A DNA stretch of 64,000 nt from Burkholderiaceae bacterium (GTDB lineage Bacteria; Pseudomonadota; Gammaproteobacteria; Burkholderiales; Rhodocyclaceae), in contig JAIPCT010000001.1 of the NCBI GenBank assembly GCA_021738065.1, forward strand, positions 1-64,000. Direction: 5' to 3'. Within the stretch, counting starts at the first letter, position 1, and each line of letters starts with the position of its first letter. The notes under the pieces are model-generated. The model ran no database searches. It saw only the letters and a program-made list of their open reading frames with translations, and was not told the origin of the DNA. The position numbers and the translations under genes were made by a program. Below are positions 10,606-24,511 of the stretch, piece after piece.

Positions 10606-11136
10606 TCACTTCTCCTCTATGGTGCCGCAGGCGATCTCGAAGCAGGCGTCGACATGCGAATTGCCAAGATACAGCATCGCCGAAACGCTGAGCGCCACAG
10701 CCGCCGCCTGTCCGGCGAAGGGTATGTACTTCAGCACCTGCTTGGCGCCCAGTCGCACCGCGACTTTTTGCAAGGCAGACACCACGAGCTTTTTGGTGAT
10801 CGTCTGCCCCACCATCACCGCGCCGGATTTTCTCACCATGGCGTAGATCGCCAGGCGGCGCGCGGTATCGAGATCCTCGATCTGCTCCGGGCTCAGCCCG
10901 AACTTGCGATTGATCGCCGGGATCAGTTCCAGCAGCAGCCCGATATCGCCGGCGATGTCCGCCCCCGGAATCGGTATCAGCACCAGGCCGCCCGAACTGG
11001 CTGCGCGGCGCCGGACCATGGCCTTGCATGCGCCGCGAATTTTCTCCAGATCCGCCAACGTCTGCGTCGCCGGCAGCGATCGAGCGCCTGCAAGGCGATT
11101 AGGGTTTGCGTTCGTCGTAGCGCGGGTGCGAGTCAT
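10606..11136 (-). CDS. Unknown protein with glycine-rich hydrophobic helices
   Basis: 176 aa from ATG 11136, which overlaps the end of the upstream GFA gene by 38 bases; the frame stays open to 11184, so the start is uncertain. Two hydrophobic stretches (GGLVLIPIPGADIAGDIGLL; LKYIPFAGQAAAVALSVSAM) flank a helical region. The PIPGADIAG motif recalls the C-terminal domain of DUF697/YcjF-type membrane-associated proteins, but this was not confirmed. No catalytic motif is seen. It lies between the GFA and GNAT genes. Confidence 0.6.
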   Translation of the reverse strand: MTRTRATTNANPNRLAGARSLPATQTLADLEKIRGACKAMVRRRAASSGGLVLIPIPGADIAGDIGLLLELIPAINRKFGLSPEQIEDLDTARRLAIYAMVRKSGAVMVGQTITKKLVVSALQKVAVRLGAKQVLKYIPFAGQAAAVALSVSAMLYLGNSHVDACFEIACGTIEEK

Positions 11137-11497
11137 TGCAATCCAGCCAGGAGGCCTTAGAGGCATGGAAAATATGGAAGACATTGTCGCAGACGAAGTC
11201 CGTATCCACCGTCCCCAGGCGCAGACGCTTCAGCCCCGGCACGCTGTCCAGCGCGCTGTAGATCGGGCTGCCGCAATTGCCGCAGAAAACCCGCGCCTTG
11301 CCCGGGCTGGCACGGTATTCCTTGAGCAACTCGGCCCCCGCGAGCAGCCTGAAGCGGTCCGCATCGAGCGGGCTCACCGGCGCGAAGGCCGAGCCTTGCG
11401 CCTTGCGGCACTGCGAACAATGGCAGATCGAGATCTCCTCGATCTCGCCTTCGTATTCGTAACGCACGCCGCCGCACAGACAGCTTCCTTCGATCAT
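11099..11497 (-). CDS. GFA/CENP-V family zinc-binding protein
   Basis: 132 aa from ATG 11497, with AGGAG 8 bases upstream. All zinc ligands are present: SCLCGGV near residue 6, CHCSQCRK near 25 and CGNCGSP near 72. It is probably the first gene of a three-gene run (GFA, unknown membrane-helix protein, GNAT) with overlaps or very short spacing. The substrate is unknown for this subgroup. Confidence 0.85.
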   Translation of the reverse strand: MIEGSCLCGGVRYEYEGEIEEISICHCSQCRKAQGSAFAPVSPLDADRFRLLAGAELLKEYRASPGKARVFCGNCGSPIYSALDSVPGLKRLRLGTVDTDFVCDNVFHIFHASKASWLDCNDSHPRYDERKP

Positions 11498-11550
11498 TGG
11501 CCTCTCCTTTTCAGCATTCCGTTTTTGCCTGCCGACATCATCGTCCGCAC

Positions 11551-12246
11551 TCAGGCCGCCAAGGCCAGATCGACCGCCGCGAGGGCATGGGTAGCGGTGG
11601 TATCGAACAGCGGCAGGGACGTATCCATCGCACTCACCAGCAGCGATATCTCGGTGCAGCCCAGTATCACCGCCTCGGCACCCTGCGCCGCAAGTTCGTC
11701 GATGATGCGCCGATACTGGTCGCGGGATTCCGGCAACAGCTGGCCCAAACACAGCTCCTCGTAGATCACGCGATGCACGATCTCGCGGGAGTCGGCCGGC
11801 GGAATCAGAACCTTCAGCCCAAAATCCTCGGCCAGCCGGCCGCGATAGAAATCCTGCTCCATGGTGAAGCGCGTGCCGAGCAGGCCGACTGTGGCGTAGC
11901 CGGCGCGCCGGATCGCCGCACCGGTCGGGTCGGCGACGTGCAGCAGCGGGATGGCGACGGCGGCCTCGATCGCCGGCGCCACCTTGTGCATGGTGTTGGT
12001 GCACAAAACCAGCAGCTCGGCACCAGCAACTTCGAGCGCCCGCGCCGCAGCAGCCAATTGCGCTCCCGCCGCCGCCCAGCGGCCCTCATGCTGCAGACGC
12101 TCGATCTCGTGAAAGTCCACGCTGTAGAGCACCAGCCTGGCCGAGTGCAGGCCGCCCAGACATTGTTTCACCGCCTCGTTGATCAAGCGGTAGTAGGTGA
12201 CGGTGGACTCCCAGCTCATGCCGCCGATCAGACCGATGGTTTTCAT
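11551..12246 (-). CDS. Aspartate/glutamate racemase family protein
   Basis: 231 aa from ATG 12246 (MKTIGLIGGMSWEST). The two catalytic cysteines of the cofactor-independent racemases are visible: LVLCTNTMH near residue 84 and VILGCTEISLL near 194. The usual role is interconversion of L- and D-aspartate or glutamate. YgeA-type members act broadly on amino acids, and the start motif is of that type. The frame is open further to 12378, but that part crosses a repeat and lacks a ribosome site. Confidence 0.88.
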   Translation of the reverse strand: MKTIGLIGGMSWESTVTYYRLINEAVKQCLGGLHSARLVLYSVDFHEIERLQHEGRWAAAGAQLAAAARALEVAGAELLVLCTNTMHKVAPAIEAAVAIPLLHVADPTGAAIRRAGYATVGLLGTRFTMEQDFYRGRLAEDFGLKVLIPPADSREIVHRVIYEELCLGQLLPESRDQYRRIIDELAAQGAEAVILGCTEISLLVSAMDTSLPLFDTTATHALAAVDLALAA

Positions 12247-15647: not shown

Positions 15648-16046
15648 TCAGACGTGTGGAAAGGCGGGGTTGTGCGCGACTTCCCAGAGAAAGCCGTCGA
15701 GGTCGGTGAAGTAGCCGGAATAGCCACCCCAGTCAGTGGCATGCCCCGGCTTGGTCACCGTGGCGCCGAAAGCGGCAACGCGCTCGAGCAAGGCATCGAC
15801 CTCGGCCGCAGAGCGCACATTGTGCGCCAGCGCAAAGCCACGGAAACCGGAACCCTCGGCCGCAAGGCCGGCATCAGCGGCCAGGCTTTCCCGCGGCCAT
15901 AACGCCAGCCAGGTCTTGCCCAGCTCAAAAAACGTGATCGAAGGCGGTGTATCGATCCTCGGCAGATCGAGGCACTCGGCATAGAAGCGGGTCGCCCGCT
16001 CCAGATCGGCGACACCAAGAGTTATCAGGCTGATGCGTGGTTCCAT
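15648..16046 (-). CDS. VOC (glyoxalase/dioxygenase superfamily) protein
   Basis: 132 aa in two beta-alpha-beta-beta-beta modules. Module 1 starts SLITLGVADLERATRFYAEC; module 2 has GFALAHNVRSAAEVDALLER and ends GYFTDLDGFLWEVAHNP with the usual metal-binding Glu. The function of this subgroup is unassigned. It lies immediately beyond the distal end of the cassette cluster and has the compact chromosomal style of its neighbours rather than that of a cassette. Confidence 0.85.
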   Translation of the reverse strand: MEPRISLITLGVADLERATRFYAECLDLPRIDTPPSITFFELGKTWLALWPRESLAADAGLAAEGSGFRGFALAHNVRSAAEVDALLERVAAFGATVTKPGHATDWGGYSGYFTDLDGFLWEVAHNPAFPHV

Positions 16047-16053
16047 GATGGCC

Positions 16054-16122
16054 TCGTTAGTTTTGAAAGTAACAGTAGCTGCGCGGCTTCATCACGCAGC
16101 GTCCTGTTGACCGCCGGATTGT
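16054..16122 (-). repeat. attC-like site 1 (degenerate, distal end)
   Basis: The central hairpin of the family is present (GCGCGGCTTCATCACGCAGCG, + strand, 16081-16101), but the outer core sites are worn. The VanY stop codon (16092-16094) lies in the hairpin. This would be the terminal attC of the array. Confidence 0.5.
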
Positions 16123-16643
16123 GCGTCGCTGAAACGCCAGTGCCAAGGCTCGTATTGGTAACCGCAACGATTGCCAATGGGATAAGAGAGATAGTAGCCA
16201 AAGCTGGCAGCGTGTGCACGAAGCCAAGCAAATGCGGAAGTTTGTTCGAACTCAACTTCCAGCGAGCGACTGCCGGGAGTTGATATGTCAACCGCGCATC
16301 CAGTATGGTGCTCGCTGAATCCTGGCGGAGCGCACACTGTGAGTATGTCTTCGATTTGCGCACCAGCCCCAAGCTTTCGGCGAACAATCTCGGACTGGCG
16401 CTCAATGCTTCGGAAGGCCGAGACAATGAACAAAGAAACACCGTCCTCGAGGGCTTCAGATTTGAGATTGCGCCAAGCAATCGCGGCAGCATGAACCAAC
16501 AAATGTTCCCTACCGTCGGCTCCTACTTCGACGACTTCAAGACAGGATGCTTCCTCGCACTCGCACTAACCGCGCGCCGCCAAGAACTGACTTGAAATGC
16601 CAAGCTCGGAACAAAGTGAAACGAGGTGAAGATTCATCGCCAT
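16092..16643 (-). pseudogene. VanY/M15-type D-Ala-D-Ala carboxypeptidase with an in-frame amber stop
   Basis: Read from ATG 16643 (six bases after the attC core) the frame is MAMNLHLVSLCSELGIS and on, but codon 26 is TAG (16566-16568), and the same frame then continues without break to 16092. The downstream part is a near-complete M15 domain: FIVSAFRSIERQSEIVRRKL, EHHTGCAVDIS (zinc His and Asp), and YEPWHWRFS (zinc His). TTG 16502 could restart translation, giving 136 aa with all the zinc ligands. As it stands the gene is a pseudogene, an internally restarted peptidase or an amber-suppressed one. The family trims peptidoglycan stem peptides; relatives occur in integron cassettes. Confidence 0.8.
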
Positions 16644-16648
16644 AGAGA

Positions 16649-16718
16649 CGCCAAACGCGGAGGCGACCGGCGCTGCGCGGCCTTATCGTGCAGCGCCCGG
16701 TGGAGTGATGGGTTGGCG
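16649..16718 (-). repeat. attC site 2 (best conserved)
   Basis: About 70 bases. On the minus strand it opens with core CGCCAAC (16712-16718) and closes with GTTTGGCG (16649-16656), which are complementary, around the stem GGGCGCTGC / GCGCAGCGCC. The stop codon of the upstream cassette gene (16683) lies in the hairpin. This is the classic layout of a cassette recombination site. Confidence 0.75.
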
Positions 16719-17231
16719 TGAAGGTGATACATGGAAGTTACCCTCCTTCTTGAGCGCCGCCAGATTGGTCGAAAAGTCCTTACGGTAGTTTGGACCAAGC
16801 CAGACGGGATTTGAGGCGATGCCATCACAAACGAAGCGACCACTGTACTTAACCAAGCCTGTTCGGAGCGAAACTCCAGAACCACCAAGAAGGTCTCGAA
16901 GCCTATTTGTGAGACCAAGTACCGCGTAAGCCGAGTTGCCGGTGGGTTCCAAAAAGACAGAGTAAGTCTTGGTGTCACGAAGGTATACCCATTGCTTGAG
17001 CTGGAGAGACTTGATTGCGCAGACAACTTCTGGTGGCACCGGGCGTCCTTTACGCTCAAGCCTCGCTGCAGCTGTCCCAATAATTGATGGCGTAGCGATG
17101 GTGATGTCGCGGGCAGCCGCCAACATTTTCAAGATTTCCAAACCGGCTTCGCCATTCGATAGTCGATGTACTTCGGCCAAGAGTGACGAATAGCCGTGGA
17201 TGAATACTTCCGCCGCTTGTGGGGAAATGAC
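16683..17231 (-). CDS. Integron cassette protein of unknown function
   Basis: 182 aa from ATG 17231 (MVISPQAAEVFIHGYSSLLAE). It is a soluble, mixed alpha/beta protein with no signal peptide or transmembrane helix. The last 13 residues (PSRQPITPPGAAR) are encoded by the attC site itself, so they are probably not functional. No recognised motif. An alternative TTG start at 17249 overlaps the preceding attC core. Being a cassette gene, its natural promoter would lie outside; none is visible here. Confidence 0.7.
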   Translation of the reverse strand, partial: VISPQAAEVFIHGYSSLLAEVHRLSNGEAGLEILKMLAAARDITIATPSIIGTAAARLERKGRPVPPEVVCAIKSLQLKQWVYLRDTKTYSVFLEPTGNSAYAVLGLTNRLRDLLGGSGVSLRTGLVKYSGRFVCDGIASNPVWLGPNYRKDFSTNLAALKKEGNFHVSPSRQPITPPGAAR

Positions 17232-17245
17232 CATGGCATCTACAC

Positions 17246-17366
17246 GCAAACGTCAAGCATCAGGCGCGCGCGTCCCCGCGCGTCGGCTGGATGCACTTTT
17301 TGGGCGGCTCGCCTGCACGGTCCGGAGTCTCCATGGAACTAGCTGCGTTGAAATGCCAGGTTAGCG
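17246..17366 (-). repeat. attC-like site 3 (long form)
   Basis: On the minus strand core CGCTAAC (17360-17366) pairs approximately with GTTTGCG (17245-17251). The roughly 115 bases between hold a GC-rich self-complementary centre (GCGGGGACGCGCGC). It is longer and less regular than sites 2 and 4. The LysE stop codon (17339) falls inside it. Confidence 0.5.
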
Positions 17367-17980
17367 CCAAGACCAATCAAAATGCCGCCGCCTGCGCCCT
17401 CCATAACTCTGGCAATACGATTTGATTGCCTGAGCTTGTTCACGATAGTGCCGGCAAAGTAGACACATACAAGATCAGCCGAAGCGAGTATGACGTTAAC
17501 GATCGTGCCGAGTACCAGGAATTGAAGCCAGATGGGAAAGGCCGCTGAAGCGTCGACAAACTGCGGCAGGAACGCGATGAAAAACAACGCGGTCTTTGGG
17601 TTAAGCACCTCAACCGTCACGCTCTCCACAAACGCACGACGACCGGTTTTCTGGGAGGTAGCCATTGGGTTCACCACTTCCTTCCCGCTTGCAACGGCGC
17701 GCCAGATCATCCTGACGCCAAGCCACACTAAATAGCCTGCACCAACCGCCTTAACAACCAGGTACAACGATGGCACTGCGTGGAAAAGAGCGGAAAGCCC
17801 TGCCGCTGCTGCGCCTACGTGCAAATAGCCACCGATATGCAGTCCGAAAGCTGCCATCAATCCCGCCTTTCGACCACGAGCCACTGTCTGGGCAGCGGCA
17901 TAGAGCAAGGCGGGGCCTGGCATGAAAGCGAATAGCACCGTTGCCACCAAAAAAGCGAACATCAATTCAGAAGAAGGCAT
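17339..17980 (-). CDS. LysE/RhtB family amino-acid exporter (cassette-borne)
   Basis: 213 aa with about six hydrophobic helices. Family signatures: FAFMPGPALLYAAAQTVARG at residues 18-36, GLHIGGYLHVGAAAAGLSAL, and VEVLNPKTALFFIAFLPQF near residue 125. The family exports lysine, threonine, homoserine or related molecules across the inner membrane; the substrate is not predictable. It is the first of two LysE-family cassettes in this array; the other (18134) is clearly diverged, so they arrived separately. Confidence 0.88.
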   Translation of the reverse strand: MPSSELMFAFLVATVLFAFMPGPALLYAAAQTVARGRKAGLMAAFGLHIGGYLHVGAAAAGLSALFHAVPSLYLVVKAVGAGYLVWLGVRMIWRAVASGKEVVNPMATSQKTGRRAFVESVTVEVLNPKTALFFIAFLPQFVDASAAFPIWLQFLVLGTIVNVILASADLVCVYFAGTIVNKLRQSNRIARVMEGAGGGILIGLGANLAFQRS

Positions 17981-18054
17981 CTATGAATAAACTCCAACGG
18001 ATGTGGTTAATGAAGTGCACTTGAAATACTGGCAATCCTAAGATCCATATGGCC

Positions 18055-18126
18055 CCCCTAATGTTTGAAATCCCCGGCGCTGCGCGGCATTATCGCGCAA
18101 CGTCCGGTGGATATGCCGGGTTAGCG
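18055..18126 (-). repeat. attC-like site 4
   Basis: About 72 bases. On the minus strand core CGCTAAC (18120-18126), stem GGACGTTGCGCG / CGCGCAGCGCC, and a distal core ATTAGGG (18056-18062), one base off the G-T-T consensus. The LysE gene at 18134 stops 8 bases before its right edge. Confidence 0.65.
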
Positions 18127-18133
18127 CACAGGC

Positions 18134-18769
18134 TCACGGTTGCTGTGTCTCGAAGATGAGTTTGAGACCAAGCAAAGACATGATTGCCCCCGCCGTGCGA
18201 TCAAGCCATGCCTTCGACGCAAGATAGTGGGCGCGCGGCGAAGGGGCGGATAGCACAAGCGCTACCACGGAGTACCAGATGGTCTCTATTGCAAAGATCA
18301 TGATCGGCAGCGCGACCAGAACAATCGCCGGAACTTCGCTTGGCAACAACGAAGCGAAAATGCTCGCATACACGATAGCTGTCTTGGGATTGCTCACCTG
18401 AGTAGCAAAGCCGAGCACAAACGAGCGCCAAGCCTGCGTTGGGCGAGATTGAAGAGCTGTGATTTCAAGCACCAGTGGTTGTCTGGCGCCGCGCCAGATT
18501 CGATAGCCAAGGTAGATGAGATATGTGCCGCCTAAAACCTTCAGCGCAAGATGGAGCAGCGGAACGGCAGTAAGAATACTAATCAGGCCTAGCAGCGCGA
18601 CGGCGGAAAAGAAGACCCCGCCGACCCCCATTCCGACTGCGGCGGCAAGGCCATCCCGCCGTGAGAAGGCGACTGAAGTTCGCGCAATCATGATAAAGCT
18701 CGGCCCGGGACTCATGGCACCGAGTGTGAGAGCTACCGCGATGCCGAGTATTGCGGCAGACAATTCCAT
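18134..18769 (-). CDS. LysE/RhtB family amino-acid exporter (cassette-borne)
   Basis: 211 aa, about six transmembrane helices. Signatures: LGAMSPGPSFIMIARTSVAFS at the N-terminus, VGGVFFSAVALLGLISIL, and FATQVSNPKTAIVYASIFASL near residue 128. Efflux of amino acids or similar compounds; substrate unknown. It ends close to attC site 4 and starts 22 bases left of the core of site 5, a compact cassette. Confidence 0.88.
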   Translation of the reverse strand: MELSAAILGIAVALTLGAMSPGPSFIMIARTSVAFSRRDGLAAAVGMGVGGVFFSAVALLGLISILTAVPLLHLALKVLGGTYLIYLGYRIWRGARQPLVLEITALQSRPTQAWRSFVLGFATQVSNPKTAIVYASIFASLLPSEVPAIVLVALPIMIFAIETIWYSVVALVLSAPSPRAHYLASKAWLDRTAGAIMSLLGLKLIFETQQP

Positions 18770-18791
18770 CGAGAGTCTCCTTTTTAAATTG

Positions 18792-18871
18792 GGCGCTAGT
18801 GTAGAGGTGACCGGCGCTGCGCGGCTTCATCGCGCAACGTCCAGCAACCAAAGGAAGCGAGGCCGAGCGCC
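18792..18871 (-). repeat. attC-like site 5 (degenerate cores)
   Basis: The internal stem is nearly identical to that of site 4 (GGACGTTGCGCG / CGCGCAGCGCC). The outer ends still pair over GGCGCT, but the A-A-C and G-T-T triplets needed for recombination are altered (CGG and ACT). It may be inactive. Confidence 0.5.
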
Positions 18872-18874
18872 GGA

Positions 18875-19168
18875 TCAGGCACGCCCGGCACCACGCTTTG
18901 CCTTGAAATAGGCTACGACTGCCACTACCGAGACGAACGCAAGGAGCGGATAGAACAACAGCAGGTCTATCCGGATATTGCACTCGCCAGAACAGAGTAT
19001 GCGTAGCTTCATCGCCCGTTCGTAAGGGAAGTAGGCGAGCCACGCAAGCGCCGCAAGCAGGACTGACAAGCGTCGACATCCAAGGTACAGCACCGCAAAG
19101 ACCGCGGCCGGAACCAGGGCCAGAATGGGCCAGCCGATGAATACGCCGAGGATGATGCCTATGTCCAT
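18875..19168 (-). CDS. Small integral membrane protein of a gene cassette
   Basis: 97 aa from ATG 19168 (a TTG at 19186 extends it by six residues). There are three hydrophobic segments: IILGVFIGWPILALVPAAVFAVLYLG, LSVLLAALAWLAYF, and LLLFYPLLAFVSVVAVVAYF, with a CSGEC motif in the loop between the last two. No known family. Small membrane proteins of this sort are frequent in integron cassettes. Confidence 0.65.
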   Translation of the reverse strand: MDIGIILGVFIGWPILALVPAAVFAVLYLGCRRLSVLLAALAWLAYFPYERAMKLRILCSGECNIRIDLLLFYPLLAFVSVVAVVAYFKAKRGAGRA

Positions 19169-19180
19169 TTTCGTGCCTTG

Positions 19181-19244
19181 CGTCAAAACTCAGGGACGCT
19201 GCGCGGCCTCATCACGTGGCGCCCGCTGAAACGACGGCTTATGC
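19181..19244 (-). repeat. attC-like site 6 (degenerate)
   Basis: It ends the HigBA cassette. The central stem is preserved (GCGGGCGCCACGTGATGAGG against CCGCGCAGCGTCC, minus strand). The outer cores (GCATAAG and GTTTTGA) pair poorly. The HigA stop codon (19239-19241) lies at the right edge. Confidence 0.45.
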
Positions 19245-19499
19245 GGCGTGCTCAAGAGGAACTTCCCAACCCGGAAATACGAGTACGGCAGGATGGCAGT
19301 TCAGCGCGCGGGCAAAAACCTTCGCACGCTCGACACCCAGATTGACTCGACCATTCTCAATCGCGGAGATGGTGGCTTGCGGAATGCCCGTGAGTTCGGA
19401 CAGTTGGCTTTGGCTCAATTCCTGGAGTTCGCGCAGGATACGGACAGACTCTCCCACCGAAACCTCAGCTCGCATTTTTGCAGGACGAAACTCTTTCAT
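19239..19499 (-). CDS. higA: HigA-like antitoxin
   Basis: 86 aa from ATG 19499, placed here because AGGAG lies 8 bases upstream, across the end of the toxin gene. It is an XRE helix-turn-helix protein: VRILRELQELSQSQLSELTG then IPQATISAIENGRVNLGVER. It should neutralise the HigB toxin by binding and repress the operon at the operator 19800-19815. Toxin first, antitoxin second is the HigBA order. The longer frame to 19565 merely overlaps the toxin gene. Confidence 0.85.
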   Translation of the reverse strand: MKEFRPAKMRAEVSVGESVRILRELQELSQSQLSELTGIPQATISAIENGRVNLGVERAKVFARALNCHPAVLVFPGWEVPLEHAA

Positions 19500-19500
19500 T

Positions 19501-19785
19501 TCACGGACTCCTGTAATCGTGGGCGGTGACATGTACGACTTGAATCTGCAACATGTTTGCGACAACTCGATAGATCACACGCCATTGAAGCCCCAGTCGG
19601 GAGGAGCGATGCCCCTTCCACTCGCCAGACAGAGTTTCGTCGTGAAACCCCTTGATGGCGCGCAAGCCTTGCGGCCCGGAAAGCCTGGCAATGTCCTTCC
19701 ATTTCTCGTAGCGCTTCAGAACCTCGACAGGGACCGAGCCGGAAAGCTGCTTGTCGACGCGACGGTGTTCTTCGATTTGCCACAT
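19501..19785 (-). CDS. higB: HigB-like toxin (RelE superfamily)
   Basis: 94 aa: MWQIEEHRRVDKQLSGS, WKDIARLSGPQGLRAIKGF, HDETLSGEWKGHRSSRLGLQ and WRVIYRVVANMLQIQVVHV, the complete pattern of HigB/RelE-fold mRNA interferases. These cut mRNA at the ribosome when unmatched by antitoxin. The gene is 1 base from higA. Its transcript probably begins at or next to the start codon, because the -10 box ends 6 bases before ATG 19785. Such pairs stabilise cassette arrays against loss. Confidence 0.85.
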   Translation of the reverse strand: MWQIEEHRRVDKQLSGSVPVEVLKRYEKWKDIARLSGPQGLRAIKGFHDETLSGEWKGHRSSRLGLQWRVIYRVVANMLQIQVVHVTAHDYRSP

Positions 19786-19790
19786 GTCAC

Positions 19791-19820
19791 ATTATGTATA
19801 TACCACATTTGGTATGTCAA
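19791..19820 (-). promoter_or_regulatory. higBA promoter with embedded palindromic operator
   Basis: On the minus strand TTGACA (19815-19820), an 18-base spacer and CATAAT (19791-19796). The spacer and the edge of the -35 hold a perfect palindrome ATACCA-AATG-TGGTAT (19800-19815), the expected HigA binding site. A bound repressor would block RNA polymerase directly. The +1 predicted from the -10 is within a base or two of the higB ATG. Confidence 0.75.
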
Positions 19821-20065
19821 GAGCGGCGCGGGTCTCGCGATGCACAACTGTATGTCATCCTTGTAATGTCGAATCTGGAAGCCTCCGAAATATCTTCGAG
19901 CGCGTCACGAGGAAACTCGGCCTTCGCTCCACGGCAATTGGATTAAATTCGAGGTGGTTTCGCTTCGTGTATTGCGGCATTCGCGCCGGGAAAGCATGAA
20001 GCCGCTGCGCAGCCCGCCGGGCGGCTGCTAGACTCGGCCATGTTTCACTGACGGAGCACGATGCC
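19821..20065. other. Gene-free region where an integrase and attI would be expected
   Basis: This 245-base stretch separates the proximal end of the cassette array from the quinone oxidoreductase. No integrase remnant, attI-like core or other gene could be seen. The few small frames have no resemblance to anything known. It must contain the promoter of the oxidoreductase gene. Confidence 0.5.
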
Positions 20066-21049
20066 ATGAAATACATTGACCACGGCACGGGCGGCGATGC
20101 CGACTGTATGCGCCTTGCCGAAGGCCCGGCGCCCGCGCCCGGCCCCGGACAGATTCTGATCAAAGTGGTTTGCGCCGGGGTCAACCGGCCCGACCTGTTG
20201 CAGCGCGCCGGGCGCTACCCGCCGCCGCCGGACGCTTCGCCCGTGCTCGGGCTGGAAGTTGCGGGCCGGGTCGCCGCGCTGGGCGCGGGCGTCAGCGAGT
20301 GGAAAGTCGGCGCTGGCGTGACGGCGTTGACGCCGGGCGGCGGCTACGCCGAGTACTGCGTGGCGGCCGCCAGCCACGCCTTGCCGATTCCGGCCGGAAT
20401 GGATTTCGCCACGGCGGCGGCGCTGCCCGAAACCTGGTTTACGGTATGGGCCAATCTGGTCGATCTGGGCCGCCTGAAGTATGGCGAACGGCTGCTGGTG
20501 CATGGCGGTTCGAGCGGTATCGGCCTGGTCGCGATCCAGCTGGCGAAGCATCTGGGGGTGGAGTGCATCGTCACCGTGGGCAATGCCGAGAAGGCGGCCT
20601 TCTGCCTTGAGGCCGGGGCGGCGCACGCGATCAATTACCGCAGCGCCGACTTTGCCGCGGAGATCAAGGCCATCACCGGGGGCGAAGGCGTCGACGTGGT
20701 GCTCGACATGGTCGGCGCGCCCTACTTCCAGCGCAACCTTGCCGCGCTGCGGCGCGACGGGCGACTGGTGATCCTGGCCTTTCTCGAGGGCAGCCTGGGC
20801 GAGGTGGACCTGCTGCCGATCATGCTCAAGCGCCTGACGGTGACCGGCTCGACCATGCGCCCGCGCAGCCTGGCTGAAAAGGCCGCGATCCGCGATGCGC
20901 TGGCAAGCCACATCTGGCCAGCGCTGGCGCGCGGCGAATTGCTGCCGCATCTGTTCGCGCGCTTTCCGCTGGCGCAGGCGGCGGACGCGCACCGGCTGAT
21001 GGAATCGAGCACGCATATCGGCAAGATCGTGCTCGACGTCGCGGCATGA
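20066..21049 (+). CDS. NAD(P)H quinone oxidoreductase, PIG3/Zn-less MDR family
   Basis: 327 aa, normal length. GroES-like N-terminal domain with GVNRPDLLQRAGRYPPPPDA, a YAEYCVAAASHALPIP segment, and a Rossmann domain with VHGGSSGIGLVAIQLAKHLG (NADPH site near residue 155). It lacks the structural zinc cysteines, as in QOR/PIG3-type enzymes, which reduce quinones with one or two electrons. Residues 80-87 (KVGAGVTA) are encoded by a copy of the 23-bp repeat, replacing the usual GDRV-type motif of the family. Confidence 0.88.
   Translation: MKYIDHGTGGDADCMRLAEGPAPAPGPGQILIKVVCAGVNRPDLLQRAGRYPPPPDASPVLGLEVAGRVAALGAGVSEWKVGAGVTALTPGGGYAEYCVAAASHALPIPAGMDFATAAALPETWFTVWANLVDLGRLKYGERLLVHGGSSGIGLVAIQLAKHLGVECIVTVGNAEKAAFCLEAGAAHAINYRSADFAAEIKAITGGEGVDVVLDMVGAPYFQRNLAALRRDGRLVILAFLEGSLGEVDLLPIMLKRLTVTGSTMRPRSLAEKAAIRDALASHIWPALARGELLPHLFARFPLAQAADAHRLMESSTHIGKIVLDVAA
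20303..20325 (+). repeat. 23-bp dispersed repeat, copy 2 (in frame)
   Basis: 21 of 23 bases match. It lies inside the quinone oxidoreductase gene and is read in the sense frame as K-V-G-A-G-V-T-A. The same frame is used in nuoG and phnI. Confidence 0.75.
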
Positions 21050-23947: not shown

Positions 23948-24511
23948 TCAGTCTGGAACCGACCAGGCGCCGGAATCGATCTTGTCCGCCCACATCAGGG
24001 CGGCAATGGTCTTGCCGTCGGTGATTTCGCCGTCGCGCACCGCCAGCACGGCTTCGGCAACGCTCATTTCGATGACATCCAGAAACTCGCCGTGGTCGCG
24101 CTGGTGTCCGACATAGATCAAGCCCTGGGCCCAGAAAATTTCAATATGTTCGTCGGCATAGCCGATGCTGGGATGCATGGTCGCCAGATGCCGCCAGAAT
24201 TTCGCCTGGTGGCCTGTCTCTTCGCGCAATTCGCGTTTCGCAGTATCCAGCGGGTGTTCATCCGGATCAATCTTGCCAGCGGGGAGCTCGATGAAGATGC
24301 GCCCCAGCGGATAGCGGAACTGGCGCTCGAACAGGAGCTTGCCGTTGTCGAGCTTGGCCAGCACCACCACCGCCCCCGGGTGCGCGATCCACTCGCGCAC
24401 TGCCTCATGGCCGTTGGCCATGCGCACCGTGTCGCGGCGGACATGCAACAGCTTGCCGTCAAAAACCGGCTCGCTGGTGATGGTATGTTCTATCAGCTCC
24501 GAATCGTCCAT
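23948..24511 (-). CDS. Nudix hydrolase, ADP-ribose pyrophosphatase-like
   Basis: 187 aa. The complete Nudix box is GKIDPDEHPLDTAKRELREE then TGH (residues about 85-107), preceded by the strand FRYPLGRIFIELPA. Downstream HPSIGYADEHIEIFWAQGL is typical of NudF/ADP-ribose pyrophosphatase. It should hydrolyse ADP-ribose or a related nucleotide sugar. It is the first gene of the Nudix-kinase-regulator operon on the minus strand. Confidence 0.88.
   Translation of the reverse strand: MDDSELIEHTITSEPVFDGKLLHVRRDTVRMANGHEAVREWIAHPGAVVVLAKLDNGKLLFERQFRYPLGRIFIELPAGKIDPDEHPLDTAKRELREETGHQAKFWRHLATMHPSIGYADEHIEIFWAQGLIYVGHQRDHGEFLDVIEMSVAEAVLAVRDGEITDGKTIAALMWADKIDSGAWSVPD

Follow-up and report, generated by a model that had tools for sequence, protein, structure and literature searches.

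Cassette arrays without an integrase are common, and for a given array it is seldom clear whether it goes back to loss of the integrase or to scattered cassettes. IntegronFinder 2.0 recognises such clusters of attC sites lacking an integron integrase (CALINs) by at least two attC sites with no integrase nearby, and CALINs were previously proposed, in the portion of that report drawn on here, to be degraded integrons (PMC9024848). The array analysed in this work lies at positions 16054–19848 of a stretch of 64,000 nucleotides (the window; contig JAIPCT010000001.1, positions 1 to 64,000) from an environmental Burkholderiaceae bacterium and is a CALIN, as a preliminary description made from the letters of the window had already proposed. 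With a probability of roughly 0.8 we consider it the remnant of a sedentary chromosomal integron which stood at a fixed dock of the genus and lost its integrase gene (intI). An integron with a lost recombinase gene is the most likely explanation because the array sits where several relatives carry a complete integron, a location which the preliminary description had missed.

The Xanthomonas ilvD integron is, according to the available part of its report (PMC12444791), similar in several respects: it has a fixed chromosomal dock beside one gene across the genus (with two exceptions), its intI is often truncated or deleted with the cassettes retained, CALINs also occur at other loci, and in X. 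arboricola the divergence of intI is out of step with that of the neighbour gene. Unlike what that part describes, the present locus belongs to another genus, its dock is an alcohol dehydrogenase (ADH)/quinone-oxidoreductase-type gene (20066–21049, plus strand; PF00107 and PF08240) that is itself no cassette, no intI fragment is recognisable and the attC cores are visibly worn. The difference from CALINs in general, as far as the consulted portion of PMC9024848 treats them, is that intI-bearing as well as empty versions of the same locus were found in relatives, and origin by integrase loss can therefore be argued for this particular case.

The integrase-less remnant is already a known kind; the present one stands out by unusually clear evidence of its origin and by its well-resolved history. 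Within one genus the locus occurs empty, as a complete integron, as an array without integrase and with differing integrase lineages, thus representing a small natural series for measuring the fate of attC sites and cargo after integrase loss. Judged by title and start of abstract, none of the papers found to name both Sulfuritalea (the inferred genus) and integron dealt with the integrons of this genus.

The cassette array and its attC-type sites

The array consists of six cassettes with seven frames on the minus strand, the strand of all array features given below, and is read from high to low coordinates, one attC-type site standing after each cassette (S6 to S1). The preliminary description had claimed seven minus-strand frames with an array of attC-like sites, and both covariance-model matches and the match of the cassette ends confirmed it. 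The latter is the strongest test of the array and rests on cassette logic, not on hairpins: a matching pair of ends on each cassette is the signature of integron cassettes. When the R′ end at each cassette start was compared with the R″ end at the cassette's own end, 23 of 30 variable positions matched and 4 of 720 permutations were as good, the 8-mers of S3, S6 and the start of cassette 1 having been picked by eye; between neighbouring cassettes the match amounted to 12 of 25 positions.

Since an Rfam search of the window gave no match, no outside attC model was at hand, and a covariance model (R1) was trained on 26 congener sites, 13 of them from arrays with intI and none from the window. 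The training rows were trimmed by requiring AAC and GTT, and the core conservation in R1 is thus partly by choice. Over the 64-kb window R1 found S5 (18793–18881, a site of the long type) with 74.3 bits (E 4.4e-18), S2 with 53.2 bits (16649–16719; 54.2 bits for the site as 16648–16719), S4 (18055–18127) with 51.4 bits and S1 (16054–16125, the distal end of the array) with 35.6 bits (E 3e-7). S6 (19176–19257) reached 14.6 bits (E 0.22) in the same search, level with the best match outside the array (14.0 bits, 24355–24420), and 16.5 bits (E 0.004) when an unfiltered R1 search was confined to 16000–20060. The clustering of at least two attC sites that marks a CALIN is consequently found here in four sites at 35.6–74.3 bits over the window and a fifth at E 0.004 over the region. 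Further support for S6 comes from its spacing: its start lies 540 bases after the toxin start codon of cassette 1, and among 80 fetched relatives of this toxin 11 have attC at 537–540 bases; the 11 include L152, a contig from which R1 training sites were likewise taken.

S3 (17243–17368) was missed by R1 in both searches and was called from its core sites, AAC and GTT, and the cassette-end match, its middle being different and longer. As R1 finds five sites and misses S3, the six hairpins of shared design described before reduce to five, with the common plan of an R″ core end, a GC-rich hairpin that leaves a single base unpaired and an R′ core end, and S3 is of a longer, different type. A search with the hairpin pattern (up to 3 mismatches) gave 16 matches genome-wide versus 0 for the reversed-pattern control. 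In the predicted folds, full R″–R′ pairing occurs in S2 only. The observation that stop codons are buried in the hairpins held, several lying inside sites.

Folding energy was tried as a test of the sites and discarded as too weak, the z values being −2.8 for S2, −1.6 for S4, −1.0 for S3, −0.6 for S1 and S5 and +0.5 for S6. The mostly unremarkable energies of single sites would fit ordinary hairpins of the terminator kind, or repeats of some unrelated family separating unrelated genes, rather than attC. However, the sites score up to 74 bits against a congener-trained model, the cassette ends match, and three of the cassettes have relatives in attC-bearing places elsewhere, leaving such an explanation with hardly any likelihood.

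The same locus in congeneric genomes

The genus set comprised 31 genomes, the window's included, and at least 27 of them have the ADH-type gene among the matches listed, to which all counts of this paragraph refer (G004, G009, G013 and G029 have none). A full intI stands directly before this gene, on the same strand, in 7 of the 27 (G002, G003, G005, G023, G025, G026 and G028). Six of these seven docks carry attC sites farther out in the same orientation as in the window; the contig of the seventh, G028, begins 300 bases before intI. What is expected for the remnant of a sedentary chromosomal integron, namely relatives having intI together with attC at the same locus, is hence found in six genomes. 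Another three genomes (the window's, G001 and G019) have attC sites without intI at the dock, 11 have neither in the stretch read (G006, G010, G011, G012, G014, G015, G016, G018, G021, G022 and G027), and in six the dock is cut by contig ends (G007, G008, G017, G020, G024 and G030). Among the matches listed, the same gene order without the sites was seen in none of the 31 genomes; neither this order nor a lack of attC-model matches, the two outcomes that would have spoken against the preliminary description, was thus observed.

After the ADH-type gene the relatives carry the genes of the window, tentatively labelled DsbA, LuxR, histidine kinase and Nudix; these labels, like GlcG, DUF2007, SnoaL and racemase below, are our own reading, with no family search behind them. 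At this locus G003 is closest to the window (86% identity over four genes, followed by G001 with 85%; 97% protein identity for the kinase). Its integron (L072) is flanked on either side by the neighbours seen in the window, contains intI and attC and has its cassettes oriented alike relative to the ADH-type gene, and on the distal side G003 and the window share a GlcG-like, a DUF2007, a SnoaL-like and a racemase-like gene. It differs by its full intI and attI-like core, and none of the window's cassette proteins found a match in its array. The cleanest empty site is that of G011, where about 520 bp separate the ADH-type gene from the counterpart of the gene at window positions 11099–12004. Apart from this site, four attC matches were observed in G011 (L251, G011:C55, 14346–16068), 6–9 kb away from a gene distantly related (67%) to the GlcG-like one that borders the region in the window.

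A tree of four genes of the locus placed the window and G003 together (100/100 support), in the half which holds all 6 intI rows (split support 90/96). The tree rests on genes of the locus itself because an rpoB search found none in G003; rpoB was used for identities only.

The cassettes could also have been placed here without a local integrase, either because an integrase encoded elsewhere in the genome used a secondary site or because part of another array recombined into the locus. Scattered cassettes do exist in this genome: matching attC sites were found elsewhere, with 20 further matches on ten other contigs (C35, C48, C56, C61, C85, C106, C127, C142, C144 and C146), of which two are weak (31 and 25 bits), several are clustered, some stand single and some lie at contig ends. 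In G002, furthermore, a relative of the toxin-antitoxin genes lies at 2.25 Mb with attC about 1.2 kb before it, far from the integrases at 1.43 and 3.67 Mb. Against this origin, the array occupies the very place used by intI in seven genomes of the genus and has the orientation expected from a start at intI and attI. A chance landing is unlikely, and we regard placement without a local integrase as rather improbable.

The absence of intI might likewise be an artefact, the gene being present in the organism and lost in a chimeric metagenome join. Draft assemblies overestimate CALINs, as stated in the part of PMC9024848 drawn on here, and three other attC arrays of this genome do lie at contig ends (C48, C56 and C61). 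The present array, however, is situated within a contig of 84.7 kb and flanked by conserved genes on either side, and the missing piece would fall between cassette 1 and the ADH-type gene instead of at an attC repeat, which makes such a join very unlikely.

Probable integrase loss and wear of the array

According to the integrase-loss reading, the intI of an ancestor would have stood between the first cassette (now starting near 19848) and the ADH-type gene (from 20066), its transcription directed away from the cassettes. The cassettes would have been inserted one by one by IntI at attI, each keeping its own matching ends. Later, intI and attI would have disappeared by deletion or replacement at about 19853 to 20028, rather than never having been there, with the array retained. 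Without a local integrase the attC core triplets would then have been lost and at least one cargo gene (VanY) broken. After the loss the array would be fixed, its genes presumably still transcribable from promoters of their own, and a cassette could be mobilised only by an integrase working in trans on those sites whose cores are intact.

No integron integrase over the TIGR02249 cut-off was found in the whole genome (about 87.6% complete) and no match on contig C62, which bears out the earlier statement that no integrase is seen on either side. The three tyrosine recombinases of the genome were considered as a hidden IntI and rejected, as they score far below the cut-off and look like XerD, XerC and a phage-type integrase. 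At the place of intI and attI in the seven genomes the window has a gap (19853–20028, plus strand). Searched in 101 genomes, the gap matched, besides itself, only short pieces (best E 4e-4 over 24 bases), and a search for near-matching plasmids found none for the region. By eye, a 9-base match to attI cores was seen in the gap. The region upstream of intI in L023 (G020:C283), an environmental congener, presumably resembles attI1 of class 1 integrons.

The wear of the attC cores was counted on all 84 R1 matches, a core being intact if both triplets, AAC and GTT, are present. Before clean-up 25 of 28 rows from intI arrays, 18 of 23 from other arrays of this genome and 1 of 4 from the window were intact. 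Clean-up reduced the intI rows to 26 (a duplicate on the opposite strand and a site truncated at a contig end were dropped) and the own-genome rows to 21 (two duplicates); S3, with an intact core, and S6, with a changed one, entered the window count by eye. The intI arrays include three rows from L102, the second integron of G002, which is not at the ADH-type gene. The resulting 2 of 6 intact cores in the window compare with 24 of 26 in intI-bearing arrays (Fisher p 0.006, the sites within one array not being independent). In the window both triplets are intact in S2 and S3 and both are changed in S1 and S5; S4 retains the AAC of R″ with a changed GTT in R′, and S6 is strongly decayed. With core triplets changed in four of six sites, the array has probably become immobile. 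The former view, in which mobile genes are stored amid otherwise core DNA, needs sharpening in this respect and with regard to the place, which is the dock of intI in seven genomes of the genus.

Integrases at the dock belong to at least three lineages (L069, L071, L072, L073, L075, L076 and L077), with 58–67% protein identity between them, the neighbours having about 78–95% nucleotide identity. Between G002 and G023 intI is far more divergent (65% nucleotide identity versus 86% for the ADH-type gene), between G002 and G005 it is far less divergent (95.5% versus 86%), and in the comparison of G003 with G023 the identity falls from 88% to 81% on passing from the intI to the ADH stretch. These comparisons suggest exchange of intI at a fixed place. 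That the genus has a fixed integron dock on the 5′ side of the ADH-type gene, where intI lineages replaced one another by recombination in a cycle of which the window would be one vacated state, is a tentative extension, to which we give slightly less than even odds on these sequence comparisons. A second piece resembling the 3′ end of intI was noticed by eye between the complete intI and the ADH-type gene in G023 and G026 (L077 4627–4767 and L069 1977–2120), possibly the trace of an earlier integrase.

Several observations weigh against the integrase-loss reading. Since at least three intI lineages occur at the dock, both gain and loss have happened there. The gap itself contains no recognisable attI or intI fragment: its 23-nt match to the 3′ end of intI (20006–20028) ranks first of 18 loci without intI with a shuffle p of 0.068, and the best gap score of an attI-core profile (13 attI-like cores, 16 intI loci tried) was reached by 373 of 1000 shuffles. 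With a genome about 88% complete and the arrays on C48, C56 and C61 at contig ends, an intI could be present elsewhere. The locus tree has a midpoint root only, and the base composition of G003 was flagged in it as odd. Compared with the other arrays of the same genome (16 of 21 intact), the wear of the window gives p 0.14. Core decay is moreover no general mark of arrays without intI, as 12 of 13 cores in G001, where no intI was found, and 2 of 2 in G019 are intact (7 of 14 in the arrays of G020, G011 and G008 together); it may reflect age or chance rather than loss. Possibly G001 lost intI only recently, or decay depends on some other factor.

Cargo genes and their relatives

The preliminary description had listed HigBA, two LysE exporters, a peptidase and proteins of unknown kind as cargo, and these families were found, with the qualification that the peptidase frame looks broken. 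Cassette 1 begins with the GTT read from the sequence at 19846–19848, the junction that would face attI. It encodes a RelE/HigB-type toxin of 94 aa (19501–19785; TIGR02385 RelE_StbE, 33.2 bits with a cut-off of 27.9) and an Xre-type antitoxin of 108 aa (19239–19565; PF01381 HTH_3, 54 bits), whose stop codon falls within the R″ end of S6. Toxin-antitoxin pairs usually have a promoter of their own. Homology of the toxin cassette ends at 19848 in comparison with L091 and L095 and at 19857 with L093. The scan found 403 relatives of the toxin with up to 96% identity; among the 80 fetched, 27 have an attC match within the fetched stretch, and in 11 attC stands straight after the toxin-antitoxin pair.

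Cassettes 3 and 4 each carry a LysE-family exporter (18134–18769, PF01810 114.6 bits; 17339–17980, PF01810 93 bits). For the exporter of cassette 3, G204 contains a relative of 85% identity that is directly followed by attC. Cassette 6 contains a VanY-type D,D-carboxypeptidase frame (16092–16502; PF02557, 127.5 bits), apparently interrupted near its 5′ end, with a 79% relative in G050 that is a cassette in a complete integron of a different family, its contig also bearing intI and attC standing at the gene's end. With the relatives of toxin, VanY and LysE beside attC, three of the six cassettes have relatives standing as cassettes in other genomes. Because of an in-frame stop near its start relative to the G050 gene, the VanY frame looks broken, and the cargo appears to be decaying too; the other frames still look intact.

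Cassette 2 (103-aa protein, 18875–19186) and cassette 5 (188-aa protein, 16683–17249) have no Pfam or NCBIfam match, and of 299 further genomes sampled from the order, 4 contain relatives of the latter at 38–46% identity. The dN/dS ratios of cassette genes versus their relatives (0.03–0.15) reflect selection over the entire path between the copies and are silent on its continuation after the loss.

A glyoxalase gene (15648–16046) was considered as a seventh cassette but found no support, as no attC match follows it. Its relatives are situated elsewhere in the 11 congener loci examined, 9 of which have no attC match in the stretch. The gene starts 8 bases after S1, and several of its congener relatives share one neighbourhood.

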